A stretch of 59,075 bases of DNA from Salinibacterium xinjiangense (lineage in GTDB: Bacteria > Actinomycetota > Actinomycetes > Actinomycetales > Microbacteriaceae), in NCBI RefSeq assembly GCF_014645015.1, contig NZ_BMLC01000003.1, positions 1-59,075 of the forward strand. The letters run 5' to 3'. The translations under genes were made by a program, and so were the position numbers. Position 1 is the first letter of the stretch. Every line of letters starts with the position of its first letter. The notes under the pieces were generated by a model. That model worked only from the letters and a program-made list of their open reading frames with translations. It was not told the DNA's origin and made no database searches. Below are positions 23,388 to 46,417 of this stretch, one piece after another.

Positions 23388-24398
23388 GTGACCCTCAAAC
23401 TCGGATACAAGGCATCGGCAGAGCAGTTCGACCCGCGAGAGTTGGTGGAGATTGCGGTCGCCGCAGAAGCGCACGGCATGGAGAGCGTCGCGGTCAGTGA
23501 CCACTTCCAGCCGTGGCGGCACGAGGGTGGGCATTCACCATTCTCGCTCAGCTGGATGGCCGCGGTGGGTGAGCGCACCTCCACCATCCAGATTGGCACC
23601 TCGGTGATGACGCCGACGTTCCGCTACAACCCGGCCGTGCTCGCCCAGGCGTTTGCGACGATGGGATGCCTCTACCCGGGGCGGATCATGCTCGGCGTCG
23701 GTACCGGCGAGGCGCTCAACGAGATCGCGACCGGTTTTGCAGGTGAGTGGCCGGAATTCAAGGAGCGCTTTGCCCGGCTGCGCGAATCCGTCGCTCTCAT
23801 GCGCCAGCTCTGGACCGAGGATCGCGTGAACTTCGAGGGCGAGTACTACACGACCGTCGACGCCTCGATCTATGACAGGCCGGATGTGCCGGTGCCGGTC
23901 TATATCGCCGCTGGCGGCCCTGTCGTGGCGCGTTACGCGGGTCGCGCGGGCGACGGCTTCATCTGCACCTCGGGTAAGGGTATGGAGCTGTATACCGAGC
24001 AGCTCATTCCGGCGGTGAAAGAGGGCGCCGAGAAGGTCGGCCGGGACTACGACGACATCGACCGCATGATCGAGATCAAGATCTCCTATGAGAGCAGCCG
24101 GGAGGTCGCCCTCGAGAACACGCGGTTCTGGGCGCCACTGGCGCTGTCGAAGGAGCAGAAACACGACATCACCGACCCGATGGAGATGGAGAAAGCTGCG
24201 GACGCGCTGCCGATCGAGAAGATCGCGTCGCGATTCATCGTCAGTTCCGATCCTGACGACGTGGTCGCCCAGGTCAAGCAGTACGTGGATGCCGGCATGA
24301 ATCATCTCGTTTTCCATGCACCCGGGCATGACCAGCGTCGATTCCTGGATCTCTTCGAGAAGGATCTCGCCCCGAGGCTACGCGCGCTCGACGCGTGA
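23388..24398 (+). CDS. fgd: F420-dependent glucose-6-phosphate dehydrogenase
   Basis: A 336-residue luciferase-like monooxygenase-fold enzyme that reduces F420 with glucose-6-phosphate. It is recognisable from [19 protein letters not shown] at the start, [45 protein letters not shown] and KMIEIKISY-like and [15 protein letters not shown] blocks, which match mycobacterial Fgd1 almost word for word. It would supply F420H2 to the LLM reductases of the cell. Its stop overlaps the start of the DinB gene (GTGA). Confidence 0.95.
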
Positions 24399-24988
24399 CC
24401 GACGACCCGAAAGAGACGTTGCACCGCTACCTCCGGCAGGCGCGCGAGGCGCTGCTCTGGAAGGTCGAAGGCCCCAGCGAGTAGGACATCCGTCGACCGC
24501 TCGTGCCGAGCGGCTCGAACCTGCTGGGCATCGTCAAGCATGTGGCGAGCGTCGAGGCTGGTTACTTCGGCGAGATCTTCGGGCGGCCGTCCCCAGACCC
24601 GATGCCGTGGTTCGACGAGGGCGCGGAGCCGAACGCGAATATGTGGGCGACCGCCCACGAGTCACGCGAGTGGGTCATCCATCTGTATGAGCGAGTGTGG
24701 GCCCACTCTGATGCCACGATCGATGCGCTCGGCCTCGATGCACCCGGTCTCGTGCCCTGGTGGTCTGAAGAGCGTCGAAACGTCACCCTCCATACGATGC
24801 TCGTGCACATGGTGACCGAAACAAATCGGCACTGCGGCCATGCCGACATCCTGCGCGAGCTCATCGACGGCAGCGTCTGGCACCGCCCGCAATACAGCAA
24901 TATGGGTGAGGGGGATGCCGCGGCCTACGCCGCGCACGTCGATCGTCTCGAGGCCGTGGCGAAGACATTCTCCCGAGCCTTGCCCTAG
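24395..24988 (+). pseudogene. DinB/DUF664 family protein with in-frame amber stop
   Basis: Reading from the GTG at 24395, which overlaps the fgd stop, gives a DinB-type protein of about 197 residues, but codon 30 is TAG (24482-24484). Both sides are in the same frame and read on smoothly: ...VEGPSE, stop, DIRRPLVPSG... In relatives this position is usually Tyr (SEYD), so a single TAC/TAT to TAG change explains it. The rest is intact, with the His residues of the metal site in IVKHVASVE and the MLVHMVTETNRHCGHADI region. A GTG at 24503 could still give a 161-residue product lacking the first helix. A sequencing error is possible. Confidence 0.8.
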
Positions 24989-25915: not shown

Positions 25916-26674
25916 ATGATGCTCTCGGTTTTCGCGGTCGGCGGGCTGCCCGAGTTCGTAGCCGGGGACGATCTGGTGACGATTCTCGGGGACGCGGTCG
26001 ACGGCATCCTGCATGACGGCGACATACTCGTCATCACCTCCAAGATCGTGAGCAAGGCCGAAGGCCGCCAGGTGCACGCGGATGATCGGGAAGCCGCGAT
26101 CACCTCGGAGACCGTGCGGGTCGTGGCCACCCGTGAGCACGCGGGAGGTGTCACCCGCATCGTCGAGAATCACCTCGGGATGGTCGCGGCCGCAGCCGGT
26201 GTCGACTCCAGCAACGTGCCTGACGGCATCGTGTTGCTTCTTCCCGTCGACCCTGACGCGACAGCGTTGCTGCTCTGCCGTGAATTTCGCAAACGGTCCG
26301 GCCGGCGTATCGGCATCCTCATCACCGACACTCTCGGCCGGCCGTGGCGACAGGGCCAGACCGATGTCGCGATCGGTGCGGCCGGCATCCGCGTGCTCGA
26401 CGACTTACGCGGTTCGACCGATGCAAATGGCAGGCGACTGGATGTCACGGTGCCGGCCGTCGCGGATGAAATCGCCGCCGCGGCCGACCTCGTCAAAGGC
26501 AAGTCGCTCGGGCTGCCGGTAGCGGTAGTGCGCGGTCTCGGCCATCTGCTGGCCGAACTGGATGCGCCGGGCGCCAGGTCAATCGTGCGCACGGGCCCCG
26601 ATGACATGTTCAGGCTGGGGACCGCTGAAGCCTGGGCCGAGGGATTCGAGGCCGGGCGCGCGAGTGCCCACTGA
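25916..26674 (+). CDS. cofE: coenzyme F420-0:L-glutamate ligase
   Basis: A 252-residue enzyme that adds gamma-linked glutamates to F420-0. Recognised from [55 protein letters not shown] and [19 protein letters not shown]. Unlike mycobacterial FbiB (about 450 residues) it has no C-terminal nitroreductase-like domain and so has the archaeal CofE length. Overlaps cofC by 11 bp, forming a cofE-cofC unit. Confidence 0.93.
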
Positions 26675-27242
26675 CTGGATCGTCATCGTGCCGGTCAGGG
26701 TCGCGTCGGCCAAGACCCGCTTCGGCCCGCACGACAACAGTGAGCTGGCGCTGGCAATGGCGATCGACACCGTGGTCGCTGCGCTCCAGGTCGCGCGCGT
26801 GATCGTGGTGACCGACACCGCGCAGTCTTTCCTGGAGCTCGGTGCTGCTGTGCATCCTGATCCCGGTACCGGCCTCAACGCCGCCATCGAAGCAGGGCTT
26901 GCGCAGGCCGGGATCGGCGCCCGCCGGGCGGTGCTGCTGGGGGATCATCCTGCTCTCACCCCCGCCGAGCTGGACGAAGCTCTGGACGCCGCAACCCATC
27001 CGCTGAGCATGGTTGCCGATGCCGCGGGAACCGGAACCGCCCTGACTGCCGCACTGCCGGGGGTCGGGCATCGGCCCGCGTTCGGCGAGGGTTCGAAAGC
27101 GGCGCACGAATCGGCCGGCTACATCCCGCTCAGCGGCGACTGGCCGGGGCTCCGCACCGACGTGGACACCGCGGCAGATCTCGCGCGCCTCAGGCGAACC
27201 GGCCCGCACACTGCTGCCTGGTCAGCCGACAGCCGCCGCTAG
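26664..27242 (+). CDS. cofC: phosphoenolpyruvate/2-phospho-L-lactate guanylyltransferase
   Basis: A 192-residue nucleotidyltransferase (CofC/FbiD) that activates the F420 side-chain precursor with GTP. Signature segments are [39 protein letters not shown] and [13 protein letters not shown]. The GTG at 26664 gives the family-typical [11 protein letters not shown] start. The 3' end overlaps the convergent cofD by 21 bp. Confidence 0.9.
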
Positions 27243-28172
27243 CGCGTGCCTGCCGAGCGTCGCGCTCGACTCCGGGTCGCGCATCCACAGTGGGACGACG
27301 TGCGCCCGGATGCCCGCAGCCTCGATCGCGGAGGTGAGCTGGGAGTCAGAGTTATCGACGAGCCAGTCATCCAGCACCCCGCCGTTCGACCGAGCGCCGT
27401 AGTGCAGCGCGACCGCGTCGGCAGTGGTGGAGACGCCGATGGCGGTCAGGCACGCGTCGGCCATGCCCCGCACGACGGCGCCCGAGATGATCGGCGAAAC
27501 CCCGACGACACGTGCCGAGGTTGCGGCAAGTGCCGTCCGAATCCCGGGGATCGCGAGAATCGGGCCGATCGAGACCACCGGGTTCGATGGCGCGAGCAGC
27601 ACGGCGTCCGCTTCCGTGATGGCGTCGAGTACACCGCGAGCAGGAGTCGATTCGGCAACGCCACGGTAGTCGAACGACAGGGCGGGGATGGATGCCCGAT
27701 GCCGGGTCCACCACTCCTGGAAGTGCATGGTGGCCTCCGCCGTCACGACGTGGGTCTCGACCTCGTCATCGGTGGCAGGGATGAGGCGCACACCGAGCGG
27801 CCATCGCGACGCGATGCGTGCCGTCACCTCACTCAACGGCAGCCCCTCGCGCAGCAGGTGGCTGCGGGTGAGGTGGGTGCCGATATCGAGGTCGCCGAGG
27901 GTGAACCACGGCCATCCCACTCCATATGCACGAAGCTCACCGCTGACCCTTTCGGTCTCACCAACGCGACCCCAGCCGCGCCGCTCATCGTTCTCGCCCG
28001 CCAGCGTGTACATGATCGAGTCGAGGTCTGGCGCGATGCGCAGCCCGGTGAGCCACATGTCGTCGCCCACGTTCACGACCGCGGTGACCTCGTCGGTCGG
28101 GGAGATGGCGTCGCGCAGCCCGCGCAGGAAGCGCGCGCCACCGACGCCGCCGGAGAGAACAGTGATCTTCAC
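27222..28172 (-). CDS. cofD: 2-phospho-L-lactate transferase (CofD/FbiA)
   Basis: A 316-residue enzyme that joins the activated lactyl or enolpyruvyl moiety to FO to give (dehydro-)F420-0. Motifs are MKITVLSGGVGGARFLRGL, VVNVGDDMWLTGLRI, PDLDSIMYTLAG, GDLDIGTHLTR and APSNPVVSIGPILAIPG. GTG start. Transcribed towards cofC with overlapping 3' ends, so the two strands could make antisense RNA over the last 21 bp. Confidence 0.95.
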   Translation of the reverse strand: MKITVLSGGVGGARFLRGLRDAISPTDEVTAVVNVGDDMWLTGLRIAPDLDSIMYTLAGENDERRGWGRVGETERVSGELRAYGVGWPWFTLGDLDIGTHLTRSHLLREGLPLSEVTARIASRWPLGVRLIPATDDEVETHVVTAEATMHFQEWWTRHRASIPALSFDYRGVAESTPARGVLDAITEADAVLLAPSNPVVSIGPILAIPGIRTALAATSARVVGVSPIISGAVVRGMADACLTAIGVSTTADAVALHYGARSNGGVLDDWLVDNSDSQLTSAIEAAGIRAHVVPLWMRDPESSATLGRHALAAAVG

Positions 28173-33397: not shown

Positions 33398-35737
33398 GTG
33401 ACGATTTCTGGGACAACTGTGCAGGCTGGCGTGCTCAGCGCCCTTGAGCGCGCTGCGAGTGGTGAATCGGTGTCGGTGCACGATGCCGAGCTGCTTCTGC
33501 AGGTCCGCGGCGACGACCTGGAACGGCTGTTCGACGTCGCCAGCCGACTTCGCGACGAGGGACTGGAGCGACTCGGCCGACCCGGCGTCATCACGTTCTC
33601 GAAGAAGGTGTTCCTGCCGATCACGAACCTCTGTCGAGACCGCTGCCACTACTGCATCTTCGTCGACACCCCCGGCAAGCTCGCGAAGAAGGGCAAGTCG
33701 CTCTATATGTCGCCTGAGCAGATCGTCGCGGTGGCCCGGCAGGGCGCGGCGATGGGCTGCAAGGAGGCGCTGTTCACCCTCGGAGACCGGCCGGAAGAGC
33801 GCTGGGACGATGCCAGGGCGTGGCTCGACGAGCACGGCTATACCTCGACGCTGCACTACGTGCAGGAGATGGCGGCGCTGGTGCTGAAAGAGACCGGACT
33901 GCTTCCGCACATGAATCCAGGCGTAATGAGCCACGACGAGATGCTCGCGCTCAGGCCATTCGCCCCGTCGATGGGCATGATGCTCGAGACCACATCCGAC
34001 CGGCTCTGGTCGGAGCCCGGGCAGGTGCACTTCGGCTCGCCGGACAAAGATCCGCGAGTCAGGCTGAAGGTGCTGGAGGATGCCGGTCTCGCTCATATCC
34101 CGTTGACCACGGGAATCCTGGTCGGCATCGGCGAGACGGTGCGTGACCGGGCGGAGTCCCTCGTTGCGATGCGCGAATCGCATGCGAGGCACGGTCACCT
34201 CCAGGAGATCATCGTGCAGAACTTCCGGGCCAAGCCCGCGACGGCTGCGCAGAATGACGTGGATCTCGACGCCATCGAGTACGCCGTCACCGTTGCTGTC
34301 GCGCGACTGGTGATGGGCGCAGATGCGCGCATCCAGACTCCACCCAACCTTTCGGATGACGCGGCGCTGGCGATGCTCGTGCGTGCTGGGATCGACGACT
34401 GGGGCGGGGTCAGCCCGCTCACGGCAGATCACGTCAACCCGGAGCGACCGTGGCCGAACCTGGATCGGCTCGCCGAGATGACCCGGTCGACGGGCTTCGA
34501 ACTGCGCGAGCGACTGACCGTGCACGCCGGATACATCCGGGACTCGGCGACCTGGATCGATGCCGCGGTCATGCCCCAGGTGACGGCGCTGCTCGACCCT
34601 GTGACCCTCCTTGCCAACGAGGATGCGCGAGCGGCCGGCAGCAACCCGGCGGCTCCCACGTTCATCAGGCTCTCGACGAAAACTGCCGCAGCAACCGGAT
34701 TGCGCGAGTTGATCGCGCGGGCCGAGCAGTCGCCGGCAAGCCTCGCCGACGAGGACTACGCCGCGCTCCTCGGGGCGACGGGAGACGATCTCGACGCCCT
34801 GGCAACCCTCGCGAGTGACGTACGGCGCTATACGGTGGGCGAAGCCGTCAGCATCGTCGCCAACCGCAACCTCGACTCCACGACTCTCGGCCGAGGGATA
34901 ACGCTCGACGATGTCGCATCGATTGCGGACGATGCCTGGGAGCTCGGTGCCACCGAGTTGTGCATACAGGGGACGGTTTCGGGCGACCTGCCGTCGGGCA
35001 GCTACTTCGATCTCGCGGCTCGGGTGCGGGCGGCCCAGCCAGGGCTGCACCTGCATGCGTTCCGACCGGCCGACCTGGTTGACGGCATCCTGCGCACCGG
35101 GCTGACCGATGTGCAGTTCCTGACGCAGCTGCGGGCTGCGGGAGTCGACACCATACCCGGCACCGGTATCAAGCTGCTCGACGAGCGTCGGCGGCGCGCG
35201 GTCGCTCCCGACGATCTTCCTGTCGACCGGTGGATCGAGATCGTGCGAGCCGCACACGGCGTCGGCCTCAGGTCGACGGCCGTGATGGTCTACGGATTGG
35301 GGGAGTCGGCCGCAGACCGGGTCGCTCACCTGCGGGCGCTGCGGGTGATCCAGGACGACACGGGAGGATTCACCGAACTCGTGCCCATGCCTGCCATCGG
35401 TCACCGGATGCCTCCACACGAGCACCGCGCGGTGCACGCCGTGATCCGGCTCATGCTGCAGGGCAGCATCGATCACCTCCAGGTGCCGTGGACGCGGCTC
35501 GACCCGGAGCTGCTCATACCCCTGCTCCAGGGTGGAGCCGACGACCTCGGTGGCATCCTGCTCGACGGCCGGGTGTTGCCGCAGCACGGTGCCGAGTTCG
35601 GTCGCGAGTTGGGCATCGCGCGCGCCAGGACGCTCACGCAGGCGATCTCCCGGCCCCTCAGGCAGCGCACCACGACCTATGGCGAGCCGCCAGAGGAGCG
35701 AAAGCAGGCCCTCGAGCGGAAGCCGATCCCCGAGTGA
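33398..35737 (+). CDS. fbiC: FbiC-like FO synthase with a cluster-less CofH half
   Basis: A 779-residue homologue of the CofG-CofH fusion that makes the deazaflavin FO from tyrosine and a flavin precursor. The CofG half (about 1-400) is complete: C79-x3-C83-x2-C86 binds the radical-SAM iron-sulfur cluster, and KEALFTLGDRPEERW, GVMSHDEMLAL, MGMMLETTS, VIVQNFRAKP and DDWGGVSPLTADHVNPERPW follow. The CofH half (about 440-779) aligns well (VANRN at 487-491, GATELCIQG, HLHAFRP, WIEIVRAAH, GGFTELVPMP, RQRTTTY). However, the segment that should carry CX3CX2C is replaced by about 15 residues, and C522 is its only cysteine. The SPLYLAGAARPGPS-type segment is also missing. It is about 75 residues shorter than mycobacterial FbiC. 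The frame is open throughout. Overlaps the next gene (GTGA). Confidence 0.85.
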   Translation: MTISGTTVQAGVLSALERAASGESVSVHDAELLLQVRGDDLERLFDVASRLRDEGLERLGRPGVITFSKKVFLPITNLCRDRCHYCIFVDTPGKLAKKGKSLYMSPEQIVAVARQGAAMGCKEALFTLGDRPEERWDDARAWLDEHGYTSTLHYVQEMAALVLKETGLLPHMNPGVMSHDEMLALRPFAPSMGMMLETTSDRLWSEPGQVHFGSPDKDPRVRLKVLEDAGLAHIPLTTGILVGIGETVRDRAESLVAMRESHARHGHLQEIIVQNFRAKPATAAQNDVDLDAIEYAVTVAVARLVMGADARIQTPPNLSDDAALAMLVRAGIDDWGGVSPLTADHVNPERPWPNLDRLAEMTRSTGFELRERLTVHAGYIRDSATWIDAAVMPQVTALLDPVTLLANEDARAAGSNPAAPTFIRLSTKTAAATGLRELIARAEQSPASLADEDYAALLGATGDDLDALATLASDVRRYTVGEAVSIVANRNLDSTTLGRGITLDDVASIADDAWELGATELCIQGTVSGDLPSGSYFDLAARVRAAQPGLHLHAFRPADLVDGILRTGLTDVQFLTQLRAAGVDTIPGTGIKLLDERRRRAVAPDDLPVDRWIEIVRAAHGVGLRSTAVMVYGLGESAADRVAHLRALRVIQDDTGGFTELVPMPAIGHRMPPHEHRAVHAVIRLMLQGSIDHLQVPWTRLDPELLIPLLQGGADDLGGILLDGRVLPQHGAEFGRELGIARARTLTQAISRPLRQRTTTYGEPPEERKQALERKPIPE

Positions 35738-36444
35738 GCGCGAAGCCCACGCTCGTGCTCGTGCCGGGGCTGAGTGGCCGATCTACCTGGGACTTTCCGT
35801 TCATCGCGCCCATGCTCTGCCGCCGGTTCGAGGTGACCGAGGTGGACTTCGATGCCGCCGCTCCCGACCTGGACTCGCTGCTGGCGATTGTCGATGCCGC
35901 TGTCGCCCGATGCGCCACGCCGCCGGTGCTCCTCGGGTATTCGCTTGGCGCAACGGTGGCCGCTCGGGTGAGTCGCCCGCTCGCGTCGCTGGTGCTGGTG
36001 GCCGGATGGTGGCGTCCCTCGCCGAAGCTCGTCGCGTTCGCGAACAGTTGGATGACCCTGCGCGCGGAGGAGTCGACCGCCCTCGACGAGGTTTCGGCGC
36101 TCGCGCTGTACAGCGCCGAGGGCTGGGACGCGGCACGGGCCCTTCCTGCCGACTCCGTCACAGACGCCCTGGTCGCGCTCGCCGCAGGGGTGGACGTGTC
36201 CGAGGTCGACCTCTCGGCGACCGCGCCGACACTCGTGATCGGTGGTTCCCACGATGAGGTCGCGACCACTCGAGAGACGCAGCTGCTGTTCGGCGCGATC
36301 CGGGATGCCCGCTATGCGGAGTTGCGCAGCGGCCATGCCGTCACGCACGAGCGCCCGGCCGAGCTTCTCGAACTCGTGACGTCCTTCGCCGCGCACCCTA
36401 CGGAGTTTCCGGCCGGGTCGATCATCAGCGAGCAGTCGCCGTGA
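35734..36444 (+). CDS. alpha/beta hydrolase
   Basis: A 236-residue alpha/beta hydrolase. The oxyanion-hole region VLVPGLSGRSTWDF is near the N-terminus, the nucleophile elbow is GYSLGA (Ser near 68), the acid is the Asp of GGSHDEV and the His is in RSGHAVTHERP. The cap is small. GTG start coupled to the fbiC stop; its own stop is coupled to the monooxygenase start. An esterase that opens the ester or lactone made by the next enzyme would fit. Confidence 0.82.
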   Translation: MSAKPTLVLVPGLSGRSTWDFPFIAPMLCRRFEVTEVDFDAAAPDLDSLLAIVDAAVARCATPPVLLGYSLGATVAARVSRPLASLVLVAGWWRPSPKLVAFANSWMTLRAEESTALDEVSALALYSAEGWDAARALPADSVTDALVALAAGVDVSEVDLSATAPTLVIGGSHDEVATTRETQLLFGAIRDARYAELRSGHAVTHERPAELLELVTSFAAHPTEFPAGSIISEQSP

Positions 36445-37928
36445 GCCTCTTCGAACCGGACGTGGATGTCGCGATCATCGGTGCCGGGATCGCCGGGATC
36501 GGTCTCGGCATCCGGCTGCGCCGTCGTGGTGACCGGTCATTCGTCATCTTCGAGCGGGCCAGCCAGCCCGGCGGGACATGGCGCGACAACACGTATCCCG
36601 GGGTCGCATGCGACGTTCCCTCCCACCTTTATTCGTACTCGTTCATGCCGAACCCTGGCTGGTCGAGGTTCTTCGCACCGGGAGCCGAGATCCAGAGCTA
36701 TCTCCTCGCCAGCGCGGCCGAGGAAGGGCTCGACGAGCACATCCGGCTGGATACGGATGTCACGGGCGCACGGTGGGACGCCGGGCGCGACCTCTGGGAG
36801 CTCGAGTCGAGCGCCGGTACCGTCACCGCCAGGGTGCTCGTGCTTGCCGCTGGCCGGTTGAGCTCACCGCGGTATCCGTCAGTGCCGGGGATCGATGCCT
36901 TTCCGGGCCCGGCGTTTCACTCGGCGCGGTGGGACCACGACGTGGACCTGTCTGGCAAGAGGGTTGCGATCGTCGGCTCCGGGGCATCCTCGATCCAGAT
37001 CGTTCCCGAGGTGGCGAGGATCGCATCCCGGGTGAGCGTCCTGCAGCGCAGCGCCCCGTATGTCATCCCGAGGGCGAACCCCGAGTACACGGCGGCTGAG
37101 CGGTCCCTCCTCGAGCGCGACCCGGCCGAGCTCGCCCGGTTGCGGGCAGCCCTGTTCTGGCGGGCCGAAGAGGCCTACGCCCAGCGCGCCGCGGAGCCCC
37201 AGGCTCTGGATGCGGCTCGCACCAGGGCGCTCGACCACCTGCACGCGCAGGTTGCTGACACCTCTCTTCGAGAGAAGCTCACCCCGCACTACGAGATCGG
37301 CTGTAAGCGCGTACTGATCTCGAGCGACTACTACCCGGCGATGAGCCAGCCGAACGTGAGCCTCGAGGCGTCAGCGCTCGCTGCCATCGAGGGCAACACC
37401 CTCGTCATGGTGAACGGAACGCGACACGAAGCCGATGTCGTCATCTTCGCGACGGGATTCCATGCAGCAGAGCAGCCATACGCTGAGACGATCGTCGGTC
37501 GGGGTGGCGTCACGCTCTCTGAACACTGGGCGCACGGTATGACAGCGTTCGCCTCCACCGCTGTCAGTGGATTTCCGAACATGTTCGTGATCAATGGGCC
37601 CAACGCCGCTGTCGGCCACAACTCGGCGATCTACATGATCGAGGCGCAGATCGACTACATCCTCGGTGCCCTGCAGTACCAGCGCGCCGAGGGTGACCCG
37701 GTGCTGACGGTGACAGCGGAGGCTGAGCGCGAGTATGTCGACCTCGTCGATGGGCTGAGCGCATCCACGGTCTGGATGACGGGACGCTGCGACAGCTGGT
37801 ACCTCGACCCGCGCAGTGGCAGGCTCACCCTCATCTGGCCGGACTTCGCTTTCGCGTTCCGGGAGCGGAACGGTCGCTTCGATGAGCACGCTTACGAGGG
37901 CGTTTCACGCAAAATCCCTTCGGCTTAG
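36441..37928 (+). CDS. flavin monooxygenase, Baeyer-Villiger type
   Basis: A 495-residue FAD/NAD(P)H enzyme. First Rossmann motif GAGIAG is at 14-19, followed by GGTWRDNTYPGVACDVPSH. The type I Baeyer-Villiger fingerprint F-x-G-x3-H-x3-W is present at F154-W164 (ending WD), and the second Rossmann motif GSGASS begins at 179. It likely turns a ketone or aldehyde into an ester or lactone. Its coupling to an esterase-like gene suggests a two-step degradative route. The substrate is unknown. Confidence 0.88.
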   Translation: MSLFEPDVDVAIIGAGIAGIGLGIRLRRRGDRSFVIFERASQPGGTWRDNTYPGVACDVPSHLYSYSFMPNPGWSRFFAPGAEIQSYLLASAAEEGLDEHIRLDTDVTGARWDAGRDLWELESSAGTVTARVLVLAAGRLSSPRYPSVPGIDAFPGPAFHSARWDHDVDLSGKRVAIVGSGASSIQIVPEVARIASRVSVLQRSAPYVIPRANPEYTAAERSLLERDPAELARLRAALFWRAEEAYAQRAAEPQALDAARTRALDHLHAQVADTSLREKLTPHYEIGCKRVLISSDYYPAMSQPNVSLEASALAAIEGNTLVMVNGTRHEADVVIFATGFHAAEQPYAETIVGRGGVTLSEHWAHGMTAFASTAVSGFPNMFVINGPNAAVGHNSAIYMIEAQIDYILGALQYQRAEGDPVLTVTAEAEREYVDLVDGLSASTVWMTGRCDSWYLDPRSGRLTLIWPDFAFAFRERNGRFDEHAYEGVSRKIPSA

Positions 37929-45120: not shown

Positions 45121-45187
45121 TTCTGCATGCCCCTGTGGCATGAACCGCTGGCAACCATTCGAGGGAAATAATGTCATTCTGCGCCCG

Positions 45188-45193
45188 TATTAT
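45188..45193 (+). promoter_or_regulatory. -10 element, leaderless photolyase-like gene promoter
   Basis: TATTAT is followed by exactly 6 bp and the ATG at 45200. It is among the clearest -10 hexamers in the window. GAAGG lies too close to the ATG to act as a normal ribosome binding site. Confidence 0.65.
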
Positions 45194-45199
45194 CGAAGG

Positions 45200-46417
45200 A
45201 TGATAGAGCAGTTCAATCCCACTCGGGGCGCAGCGCTGGCAGCCCTGGCGGAGTTCGTTCCGCGGGCGGGTCGCGCCTACACGCTGGACCGCAATCACGA
45301 CCGTGGACCGGAGGATCGCAGCAACGTATCGGCGTTGTCGCCCTACCTGCGGCACCGGCTGCTGACCGAGAGCGAAGTGGTCGAAGCCGTGCTCCAGCGG
45401 CACAGTCTCGCTGCGGCCGAAAAGTTCGTGCAGGAGGTGTTCTGGCGCACCTACTGGAAAGGGTGGCTGGAGCTTCGACCCGAGGCCTGGCGGCGCTACC
45501 GGCGAGAGGTCGAGACGCTGGTTCCCGACATCGGTACGGCCGAGTGGTCGAATGATTATGCCCGCGCCTGCGAGGCCCGCACGGGAATCGAGTGTTTCGA
45601 CGCCTGGGTCACCGAGCTGGCCGAGTTCGGCTACCTGCACAATCACACCCGCATGTGGTTCGCGAGCATCTGGATCTTCACGCTCGGCCTGCCGTGGCAG
45701 CTCGGTGCTGACCTGTTCTACCGTCAGCTACTGGATGGCGATGCAGCATCCAATACCCTCTCGTGGCGCTGGGTCGCCGGCCTGCAGACTGCGGGCAAGA
45801 CGTATCTCGCACGGCCCGACAACATCCAGCGCTACACGGATGGGCGATTCTCCCCAACAGGGCTCGCAAGCTTCGCACCAGCGTTGGCAGAACCGGCGCT
45901 TCCTCCGGCCCGGGAGCTGGAGGCCGCTCCCGGTCTGCCCCAGGGCCGGGTAGGCCTCCTGCTGCACGAGGAAGATCTGCACGCCGAGAGCCTGCCGTTA
46001 GGTAACGCAATCGTGCATGCAATCGCGGGCTGGCACCGGGCGGCTGATCGTTCGCCGCTCGGCTGCTCAGACTCCGTCGCCGCTTTCACCTCCACCGCTG
46101 TCAGTGACGGCCTTGCCCGGGCCTCAGCCCACTTCGGAGTGGATTCGGCGCCGCTACTCGAAAGCGACGCCTCGGCTGTGCTCGCCTGGGCCCGCGAGAG
46201 CGGTGTGACCACGATCGTCATCCCGTTCGCCCCGGTCGGGCCCGTACGCGAGCGCGTCGACGGGATGTCGGCGGAACTCGCGTCGGCGGGCGTGTCCCTG
46301 ATCGAAGCTCGACGACAGTGGGACTCGGTGGCGTGGCCGCACGCTGGCCGCGGCTTCTTCCCCTTCCGCGAGCGGATTCCGAAACTGCTCAGAGGGCAGG
46401 GGATCAGGACTCAGTAG
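45200..46417 (+). CDS. photolyase/cryptochrome-like protein with permuted domains
   Basis: A 405-residue protein. Residues about 15-230 match the C-terminal FAD-binding half of DNA photolyases: SALSPYLRHRLLTESEVV, FVQEVFWRTYWKGWLE, YLHNHTRMWFASIW and GDAASNTLSWRWVAGLQT. The last 160 residues (VGLLLHEEDLHAESL, later FFPFRERIPKLL) look like the alpha/beta antenna domain that normally comes first. So the domain order is reversed relative to classical photolyases. DNA repair or light sensing are both possible. Confidence 0.8.
   Translation: MIEQFNPTRGAALAALAEFVPRAGRAYTLDRNHDRGPEDRSNVSALSPYLRHRLLTESEVVEAVLQRHSLAAAEKFVQEVFWRTYWKGWLELRPEAWRRYRREVETLVPDIGTAEWSNDYARACEARTGIECFDAWVTELAEFGYLHNHTRMWFASIWIFTLGLPWQLGADLFYRQLLDGDAASNTLSWRWVAGLQTAGKTYLARPDNIQRYTDGRFSPTGLASFAPALAEPALPPARELEAAPGLPQGRVGLLLHEEDLHAESLPLGNAIVHAIAGWHRAADRSPLGCSDSVAAFTSTAVSDGLARASAHFGVDSAPLLESDASAVLAWARESGVTTIVIPFAPVGPVRERVDGMSAELASAGVSLIEARRQWDSVAWPHAGRGFFPFRERIPKLLRGQGIRTQ

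Follow-up and report, generated by a model that had tools for sequence, protein, structure and literature searches.

A cysteine-less CofH half and its linked monooxygenase in Salinibacterium xinjiangense and relatives: a candidate oxygen-dependent replacement for CofH

Can the deazaflavin FO still be made when the CofH half of the FO synthase has lost its radical S-adenosylmethionine (SAM) cysteine motif? The question is raised by a 59,075-nucleotide stretch of Salinibacterium xinjiangense (contig NZ_BMLC01000003.1 of assembly GCF_014645015.1; 'the window'), from a genome of 3.02 Mb in 9 contigs with a completeness estimate of 100%. It encodes a fusion of CofG with a cysteine-less CofH; this fused form was designated FbiC*, and its CofH half pseudo-CofH. 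In PMC8498797, CofH is described as turning tyrosine into a p-hydroxybenzyl radical that is added to ribityldiaminouracil, and the studied F420 producers are all described with one FO mechanism, based on two radical-SAM domains.

A CofH half without its cluster motif

Directly after VANRN (residues 487-491), at the place of the canonical CX3CX2C, the CofH half of the window protein reads LDSTTLGRGITLDDVASIADDAWELGATELCIQG. CX3CX2C is missing throughout this half, and the frame runs on into normal CofH blocks. With the CofG profile TIGR03550, FbiC* scored 463 bits (cut-off 213.35), CX3CX2C being present there; it remained below the cut-off both for the CofH profile TIGR03551 (280.2 bits against 374.1) and for the fused CofGH profile NF006687 (929.9 bits against 1018). 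The first-pass annotation, made from the letters of the window, had reported a cysteine-free linker followed by a clean frame, and C79, C83 and C86 kept in the CofG half; sequence and alignment bear out the former, and the motif CRDRCHYC could be read for the latter. It had also singled out C522 as the only cysteine left in this CofH stretch, which is correct, but the alignment shows C522 invariant in all 92 sequences, of which 13 are canonical. Since canonical CofH has it as well, this residue is not special, and it was ruled out as a substitute cluster ligand.

The distribution of this form was analyzed in a genus sample (27 genomes), a family sample (398 Microbacteriaceae genomes) and an order-wide sample (366 genomes). 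FbiC of any form was found in six genomes of the genus, four of them cysteine-less (the window and three others) and two canonical. In the family, CofH was matched in 95 genomes; the score exceeded the cut-off in 25 of them (508-527 bits) and fell short of it in 70 (338 bits or less). Two of the latter were fragments classed as canonical from their score per position, G321 and likewise G221, although in G221 the motif region was not visible and CofG has an internal stop codon. The final classing was 68 cysteine-less and 27 canonical genomes (25 by score, the two fragments by inference). The loci of all 68 were read (65 plus the window, G004 and G010; for G201, the gene end only), and CX3CX2C was absent from the window and from every other low-scoring locus with a readable CofH region. 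An assembly deletion or frameshift was ruled out, because dozens of genomes carry the same form with intact frames.

None of the 398 genomes carried both forms, while some 10 overlaps would be expected among the 175 cofD-positive genomes if the two were independent (kinship uncorrected). The first-pass annotation had suggested that a second CofH might act elsewhere. In the host genome, whole-protein and TIGR03551 searches with E up to 10 matched the FbiC* open reading frame (ORF) alone, so that this candidate was rejected; similarly, no CofH locus beyond one was found at E up to 1e-10 in any of the 70 low-scoring family genomes.

In the order-wide sample, 31 of 62 CofH matches were low-scoring. 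Six were Microbacteriaceae already known, and 20 loci, all from three other families, were fetched; outside the fetched set were four further Microbacteriaceae (G667, G712, G721, G754) and a fragment (G430) of a fourth family. All 20 fetched loci had a CofH ORF without the motif, and in 17 of them CofG was a separate gene, 15 times within the locus and twice on another contig. The same split was seen in one member of the Microbacteriaceae, G179, where CofG and cofD are on one contig and pseudo-CofH, an alpha/beta hydrolase and a monooxygenase on another.

To place the two forms, a tree was built from the CofG half, trait columns excluded. A single change (SH-aLRT 99) separated 53 cysteine-less sequences, out of 60 rows, from 57 canonical ones, and the form proved to be a conserved clade when mapped as the first-pass annotation had proposed. 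That annotation had also considered that close relatives with the motif would expose a damaged copy. Both forms do occur in the genus, but on separate sides of the tree. Once the stand-alone CofGs of the other families were added, three changes were needed and a single clade was rejected (p 0.02); one origin for all CofG partners was therefore not upheld, and the split CofGs may have another history. As the CofH-half tree required one change only, pseudo-CofH looks like one lineage, which may have met different CofGs.

We then asked which residues were lost, kept and gained. Columns were called conserved if at least 95% identical in the 57 canonical sequences, and kept if 90% or more of the 60 cysteine-less rows agreed (two rows, L090 and L093, repeat the window itself). 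Of 150 such columns in the CofG half, 126 are kept; in the CofH half, 57 of 158 are. The canonical residue is held by less than half of the rows in 80 CofH-half columns compared to 10 CofG-half columns, and in no CofG-half column has a non-canonical residue become fixed at 95% or more. Besides the cluster loop, pseudo-CofH has lost G526, I527 and P529 of the QGGI.P block, which we take to be the SAM-binding GG motif. Three positions carry new, nearly invariant residues (R556, E636 and G724; Table 1). They come from a comparison of 102 pseudo-CofH with 51 canonical sequences, after 31 that did not match the VNRN text pattern had been dropped (20 fused pseudo-CofH, 5 from other families, 6 canonical).

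For the 14 closest cysteine-less pairs, the ratio of nonsynonymous to synonymous change (dN/dS) was 0.12-0.32 in the CofH half (12 of 14 within 0.12-0.19, the others 0.24 and 0.32) and 0.06-0.21 in the CofG half; one of these pairs is a repeat (L011 and L146, with identical counts). Values over all pairs (medians 0.53 and 0.37 for the CofH and CofG halves) were discarded because synonymous sites were saturated. The close-pair ratios indicate purifying selection on pseudo-CofH, and together with the new near-invariant residues they argue that this half is in use, though changing faster than CofG. AlphaFold2 predicts an ordered barrel for it (whole-protein mean pLDDT 93, pTM 0.64). In a Foldseek search with the whole model, whose output leaves the matching half unspecified, the best match was the aminofutalosine synthase MqnE (PDB 6XI9 / 6XIG; E 2e-19); by sequence, MqnE aligns with the pseudo-CofH half. 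The two differ in that MqnE is a radical-SAM enzyme, whereas pseudo-CofH has lost the cluster site.

A monooxygenase linked to pseudo-CofH

Downstream of fbiC*, the window contains a gene that the first-pass annotation had not mentioned. By sequence and predicted fold its product looks like a type I Baeyer-Villiger monooxygenase (BVMO). Steroid (4AOS/4AP3), cyclohexanone and phenylacetone monooxygenases are its closest solved relatives, the top Foldseek matches of its model are BVMOs, and it shares the whole fold with them (TM score 0.84 by query length and 32% identity for the best match). Type I BVMOs have the fingerprint FxGxxxHxxxW(P/D); the protein has FPGPAFHSARWD at 154, and both Rossmann motifs, GAGIAG at 14 and GSGASS at 179. 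D58 and R290, present in every one of the 132 linked rows and also in all 20 homologues not linked to pseudo-CofH, are likely the catalytic Asp and Arg. They align with the CDV and GAKR stretches of steroid monooxygenase, the enzyme used for comparison rather than phenylacetone monooxygenase, whose catalytic residues we take to be D66 and R337. The protein differs from the known enzymes in being shorter and in belonging to a separate, pseudo-CofH-linked group. R139 is present in all 132 linked rows (123 after removal of exact substrings) and in none of the 20 unlinked ones, and in the tree one branch (SH-aLRT 99) parts the linked sequences (59 rows used) from the 20 others.

Outside the window, all 57 cysteine-less loci have a BVMO homologue downstream on the same strand, no further than 1.5 kb from the gene. 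None of the 57 canonical loci has one; the downstream flank is shorter than 3 kb in 28 of these, and shorter than 300 bases in two of the 28. In the family sample, where up to three candidates per genome were scored, it adjoins the cysteine-less gene in 67 genomes out of 68; the exception is G141, where the fbiC* contig stops after the gene and a BVMO homologue begins another contig. In the 25 canonical genomes of this sample, the contig of the canonical copy showed no BVMO within 20 kb of it. The 57 named-genome loci and the 68 family genomes overlap, and are not independent samples. In all 20 loci from the three other families the BVMO gene comes next on the same strand, with the hydrolase in between in one of them. 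Pseudo-CofH and BVMO stay paired in the 17 loci with a separate CofG, and in G179. The linkage follows pseudo-CofH, not CofG; since the pair is kept even then, hitch-hiking on an ancestral operon is not the expected explanation.

Some records stand apart. FbiC* of L016 (labelled as an Acidobacteria metagenome-assembled genome) and of L040 (Planococcus) groups within Microbacteriaceae in the CofG-half tree, and these records are probably mislabelled or contaminated. FbiC* with BVMO was also seen under two other names from outside the family, Millisia brevis (L024) and Arthrobacter sp. MYb23 (L049), which may reflect transfer or mislabelling. Finally, the pseudo-CofH branches of L178 (G082) and L055 (Galbitalea sp.) are very long, and in L178 the BVMO branch is long too; further functional change or decay is possible in these.

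What may replace CofH

FbiC* resembles the known FO synthase, FbiC or CofG plus CofH, in its fusion order, its intact CofG half, its CofH-type barrel and its genomic company (cofC, cofD, cofE and fgd). It differs in having a CofH half without CX3CX2C and the GG motif, in scoring below the family cut-offs, and, at the loci examined, in having a BVMO as partner. CofG has hardly changed and should therefore act on its usual substrate, which leaves the CofH step as the one that has to be replaced. Our preferred reading, to which we give a probability of about 0.68 on the basis of sequence comparison, is that BVMO and pseudo-CofH together replace the radical-SAM CofH in FO synthesis. The first-pass annotation had left three options, a second CofH, an enzyme working in a new way, or a new role for the protein. 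The new way of working is the best supported of these; however, an enzyme acting alone is improbable, since the BVMO is linked wherever the downstream region is visible. That the protein as a whole has taken a new role is less likely: 66 of the 68 cysteine-less genomes retain cofD, a gene of F420 synthesis, and most conserved columns of the CofG half are kept. The overall frequency of cofD in the family sample is 175 of 398 (Fisher p 6e-25, kinship uncorrected); among the cysteine-less genomes, cofD was matched in neither G201 (88% complete) nor G283 (95% complete, 6% contaminated).

A chemical route can be proposed. Phenylacetone monooxygenase converts phenylacetone to benzyl acetate, and by analogy 4-hydroxyphenylpyruvate, as a BVMO substrate, would yield a 4-hydroxybenzyl ester. 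The BVMO would thus provide the p-hydroxybenzyl unit using O2 and NADPH, converting 4-hydroxyphenylpyruvate to 4-hydroxybenzyl oxalate, or 4-hydroxyphenylacetaldehyde to the formate ester. The ester could yield a p-quinone methide by 1,6-elimination, and from this compound the adduct that CofH makes can be reached on paper with no radical step. Pseudo-CofH would act as a non-radical scaffold binding 5-amino-6-ribitylaminouracil and the benzyl donor; in its barrel, the pyrimidine C5 would attack the p-quinone methide in a two-electron step, giving the CofH product with its oxidation state unchanged. The usual intermediate of the CofG step is 5-amino-5-(4-hydroxybenzyl)-6-(D-ribitylimino)-5,6-dihydrouracil, from which the CofG half would close the deazaflavin ring and finish FO. 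Ester and quinone methide chemistry is the most likely route that we can name, but it is speculative and we hold it only tentatively; the complete non-radical, O2-dependent pathway, in which the cluster-less barrel is itself the adduct-forming catalyst, is somewhat more doubtful. The hydrolase present at some loci fits an ester product.

Several observations weigh against the replacement of CofH by the pair. That this BVMO clade acts on an alpha-keto acid or on hydroxyphenylacetaldehyde is speculative chemistry drawn from analogy, and the linkage could be partly inherited from one ancestor. A literature search returned, in the accessible portions of its sources (PMC8498797, PMC5408115 and PMC3288000 included), no report of FO or F420 for an organism with the cassette; the papers it returned on F420 in Microbacteriaceae, PMC5408115 included, do not deal with FO synthesis in the portions available. 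Over 235 cysteine-less pairs, median dN/dS is 0.46 in the CofH half compared to 0.35 in the CofG half (ratio 1.35), whereas 313 canonical pairs give 0.35 and 0.31 (ratio 1.05); pairs were limited to a synonymous difference (pS) of 0.05-0.45, and synonymous sites are partly saturated. Reading frames are interrupted in a few copies: the CofG motif and the CofH block are in different frames in G338, CofG and CofH are in two frames in G124, with N bases near the break, and the CofH match is in two pieces in G501. Lastly, neither CofG nor CofH was matched, at E up to 1e-10, in 82 of the 175 cofD-positive Microbacteriaceae, and 65 of these 82 genomes are at least 98% complete. The family may therefore have some other way to obtain FO, perhaps by uptake. 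Eight such cofD-only loci were inspected over 14-15 kb around cofD (L195-L202): cofC is present in seven, cofE in four, and a close fgd homologue (79-81% identity, one edge-cut) in three. Region L203, which is centred on a BVMO homologue, was left out of this set. No recognised candidate for a shared FO-supplying gene was found in these eight and four canonical loci, and the cofD-only genomes may scavenge FO or make it another way.

The last three observations (faster change in the CofH half, broken frames, and cofD-positive genomes for which FO salvage is plausible) would suit scavenging of FO from neighbours by bacteria whose own FO synthase is decaying. We consider this very improbable, as nearly all frames are intact, dN/dS in close pairs is well below 1, new residues are near-invariant over many species, and a dedicated BVMO partner is kept. 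It is unlikely, too, that the product of FbiC* and BVMO is an oxygenated FO or some other deazaflavin. A monooxygenase at every locus seen and a CofH half with new near-invariant residues would agree with this, but CofG is nearly unchanged, cofD is kept, fgd is in the window, and the cysteine-less form replaces the canonical one in sister species, which indicates the same product.

If instead CofH activity were encoded elsewhere, pseudo-CofH would be structural only and the BVMO unrelated. A homology search cannot exclude unrelated enzymes, but the host genome yielded no second CofH, pseudo-CofH is under purifying selection, and its pairing with BVMO holds even where CofG is separate; this explanation appears improbable. 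There is little to recommend the last alternative, in which both half-reactions take place at the radical-SAM site of CofG and pseudo-CofH serves as a docking domain. The cluster and motifs kept in CofG would allow it, yet no CofG column has become fixed otherwise, although 10 of 150 are held by less than half of the rows, and for 17 of the 20 loci outside Microbacteriaceae CofG is encoded separately.

In four families of one order, then, one domain of the FO synthase no longer has a cluster site and is tied to a flavin monooxygenase gene. Should the pair make FO, oxygen-dependent flavin chemistry would have replaced radical-SAM C-C chemistry on a retired radical-SAM scaffold. This could aid F420 production in aerobic hosts, as one oxygen-sensitive step alone would remain. 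For annotation, an 'FbiC' found by homology need not equal the known FO synthase.

Neighbouring genes and other features of the window

The positions of fbiC*, its partner and the neighbouring genes are given in Table 1. The genes fgd, cofE, cofC and cofD sit 5 to 10 kb upstream of fbiC*, and all reach their curated profile cut-offs, in agreement with the first-pass annotation, to which they had looked intact.

Table 1. Positions, in the window, of FbiC*, its partner and neighbouring F420 genes
Feature	Position	Strand	Remarks
FbiC* (fused CofG and cysteine-less CofH)	33398..35737	+	779 amino acids, no internal stop
Intact radical-SAM motif CRDRCHYC (C79, C83, C86), CofG half	33632..33655	+	
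Pseudo-CofH half, about residues 440-765	34715..35692	+	ordered barrel in model; residues 518-761 align with MqnE
Linker replacing the missing CX3CX2C loop, residues 492-501	34871..34900	+	from alignment
R556	35063..35065	+	Arg in 102/102 pseudo-CofH rows, Ser in 51/51 canonical
E636	35303..35305	+	Glu in 99% of 102 pseudo-CofH rows, Asp in 51/51 canonical
G724	35567..35569	+	Gly in 97% of 102 pseudo-CofH rows, Glu in 51/51 canonical
Type I BVMO (putative)	36441..37928	+	495 amino acids; start overlaps hydrolase stop
Alpha/beta hydrolase	35734..36444	+	236 amino acids; GTG start overlaps fbiC* stop codon
fgd, F420-dependent glucose-6-phosphate dehydrogenase	23388..24398	+	TIGR03554, 659 bits
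cofE, F420-0:L-glutamate ligase	25916..26674	+	TIGR01916, 232 bits
cofC, 2-phospho-L-lactate guanylyltransferase	26664..27242 (start approximate)	+	TIGR03552, 113 bits
cofD	27222..28172	-	TIGR01819, 332.8 bits at 27243-28166

The fbiC*, hydrolase and BVMO genes follow one another with successive 4-base overlaps, as in a coupled operon. The neighbours vary over the 57 other cysteine-less loci, some of which have short flanks: fgd was found in 36, cofD in 21, cofC in 18 and the hydrolase in 11. In view of the latter number, the hydrolase was rejected as the missing factor, and is accessory at most.

Three further regions were noted. An ORF at 24395-24988, presumably DinB-like, starts inside the fgd stop codon and is broken by an in-frame TAG at 24482-24484. 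At 45140-46417, a 425-residue photolyase-like protein matches only the FAD-binding part of photolyase models (the 8-HDF-type profile at positions 205-393 of 471), and from its sequence seems to be without the N-terminal antenna domain. Between 37967 and 45074 lie a carbon-nitrogen hydrolase, a dihydropyrimidinase, a TIGR03842 LLM oxidoreductase and an ABC transporter, a set for pyrimidine or hydantoin degradation. These genes were rejected as a partner of fbiC*, being close to it in few other loci only; the set recurs in part near F420 genes in L011, L048, L192, L195, L196, L199 and L201.

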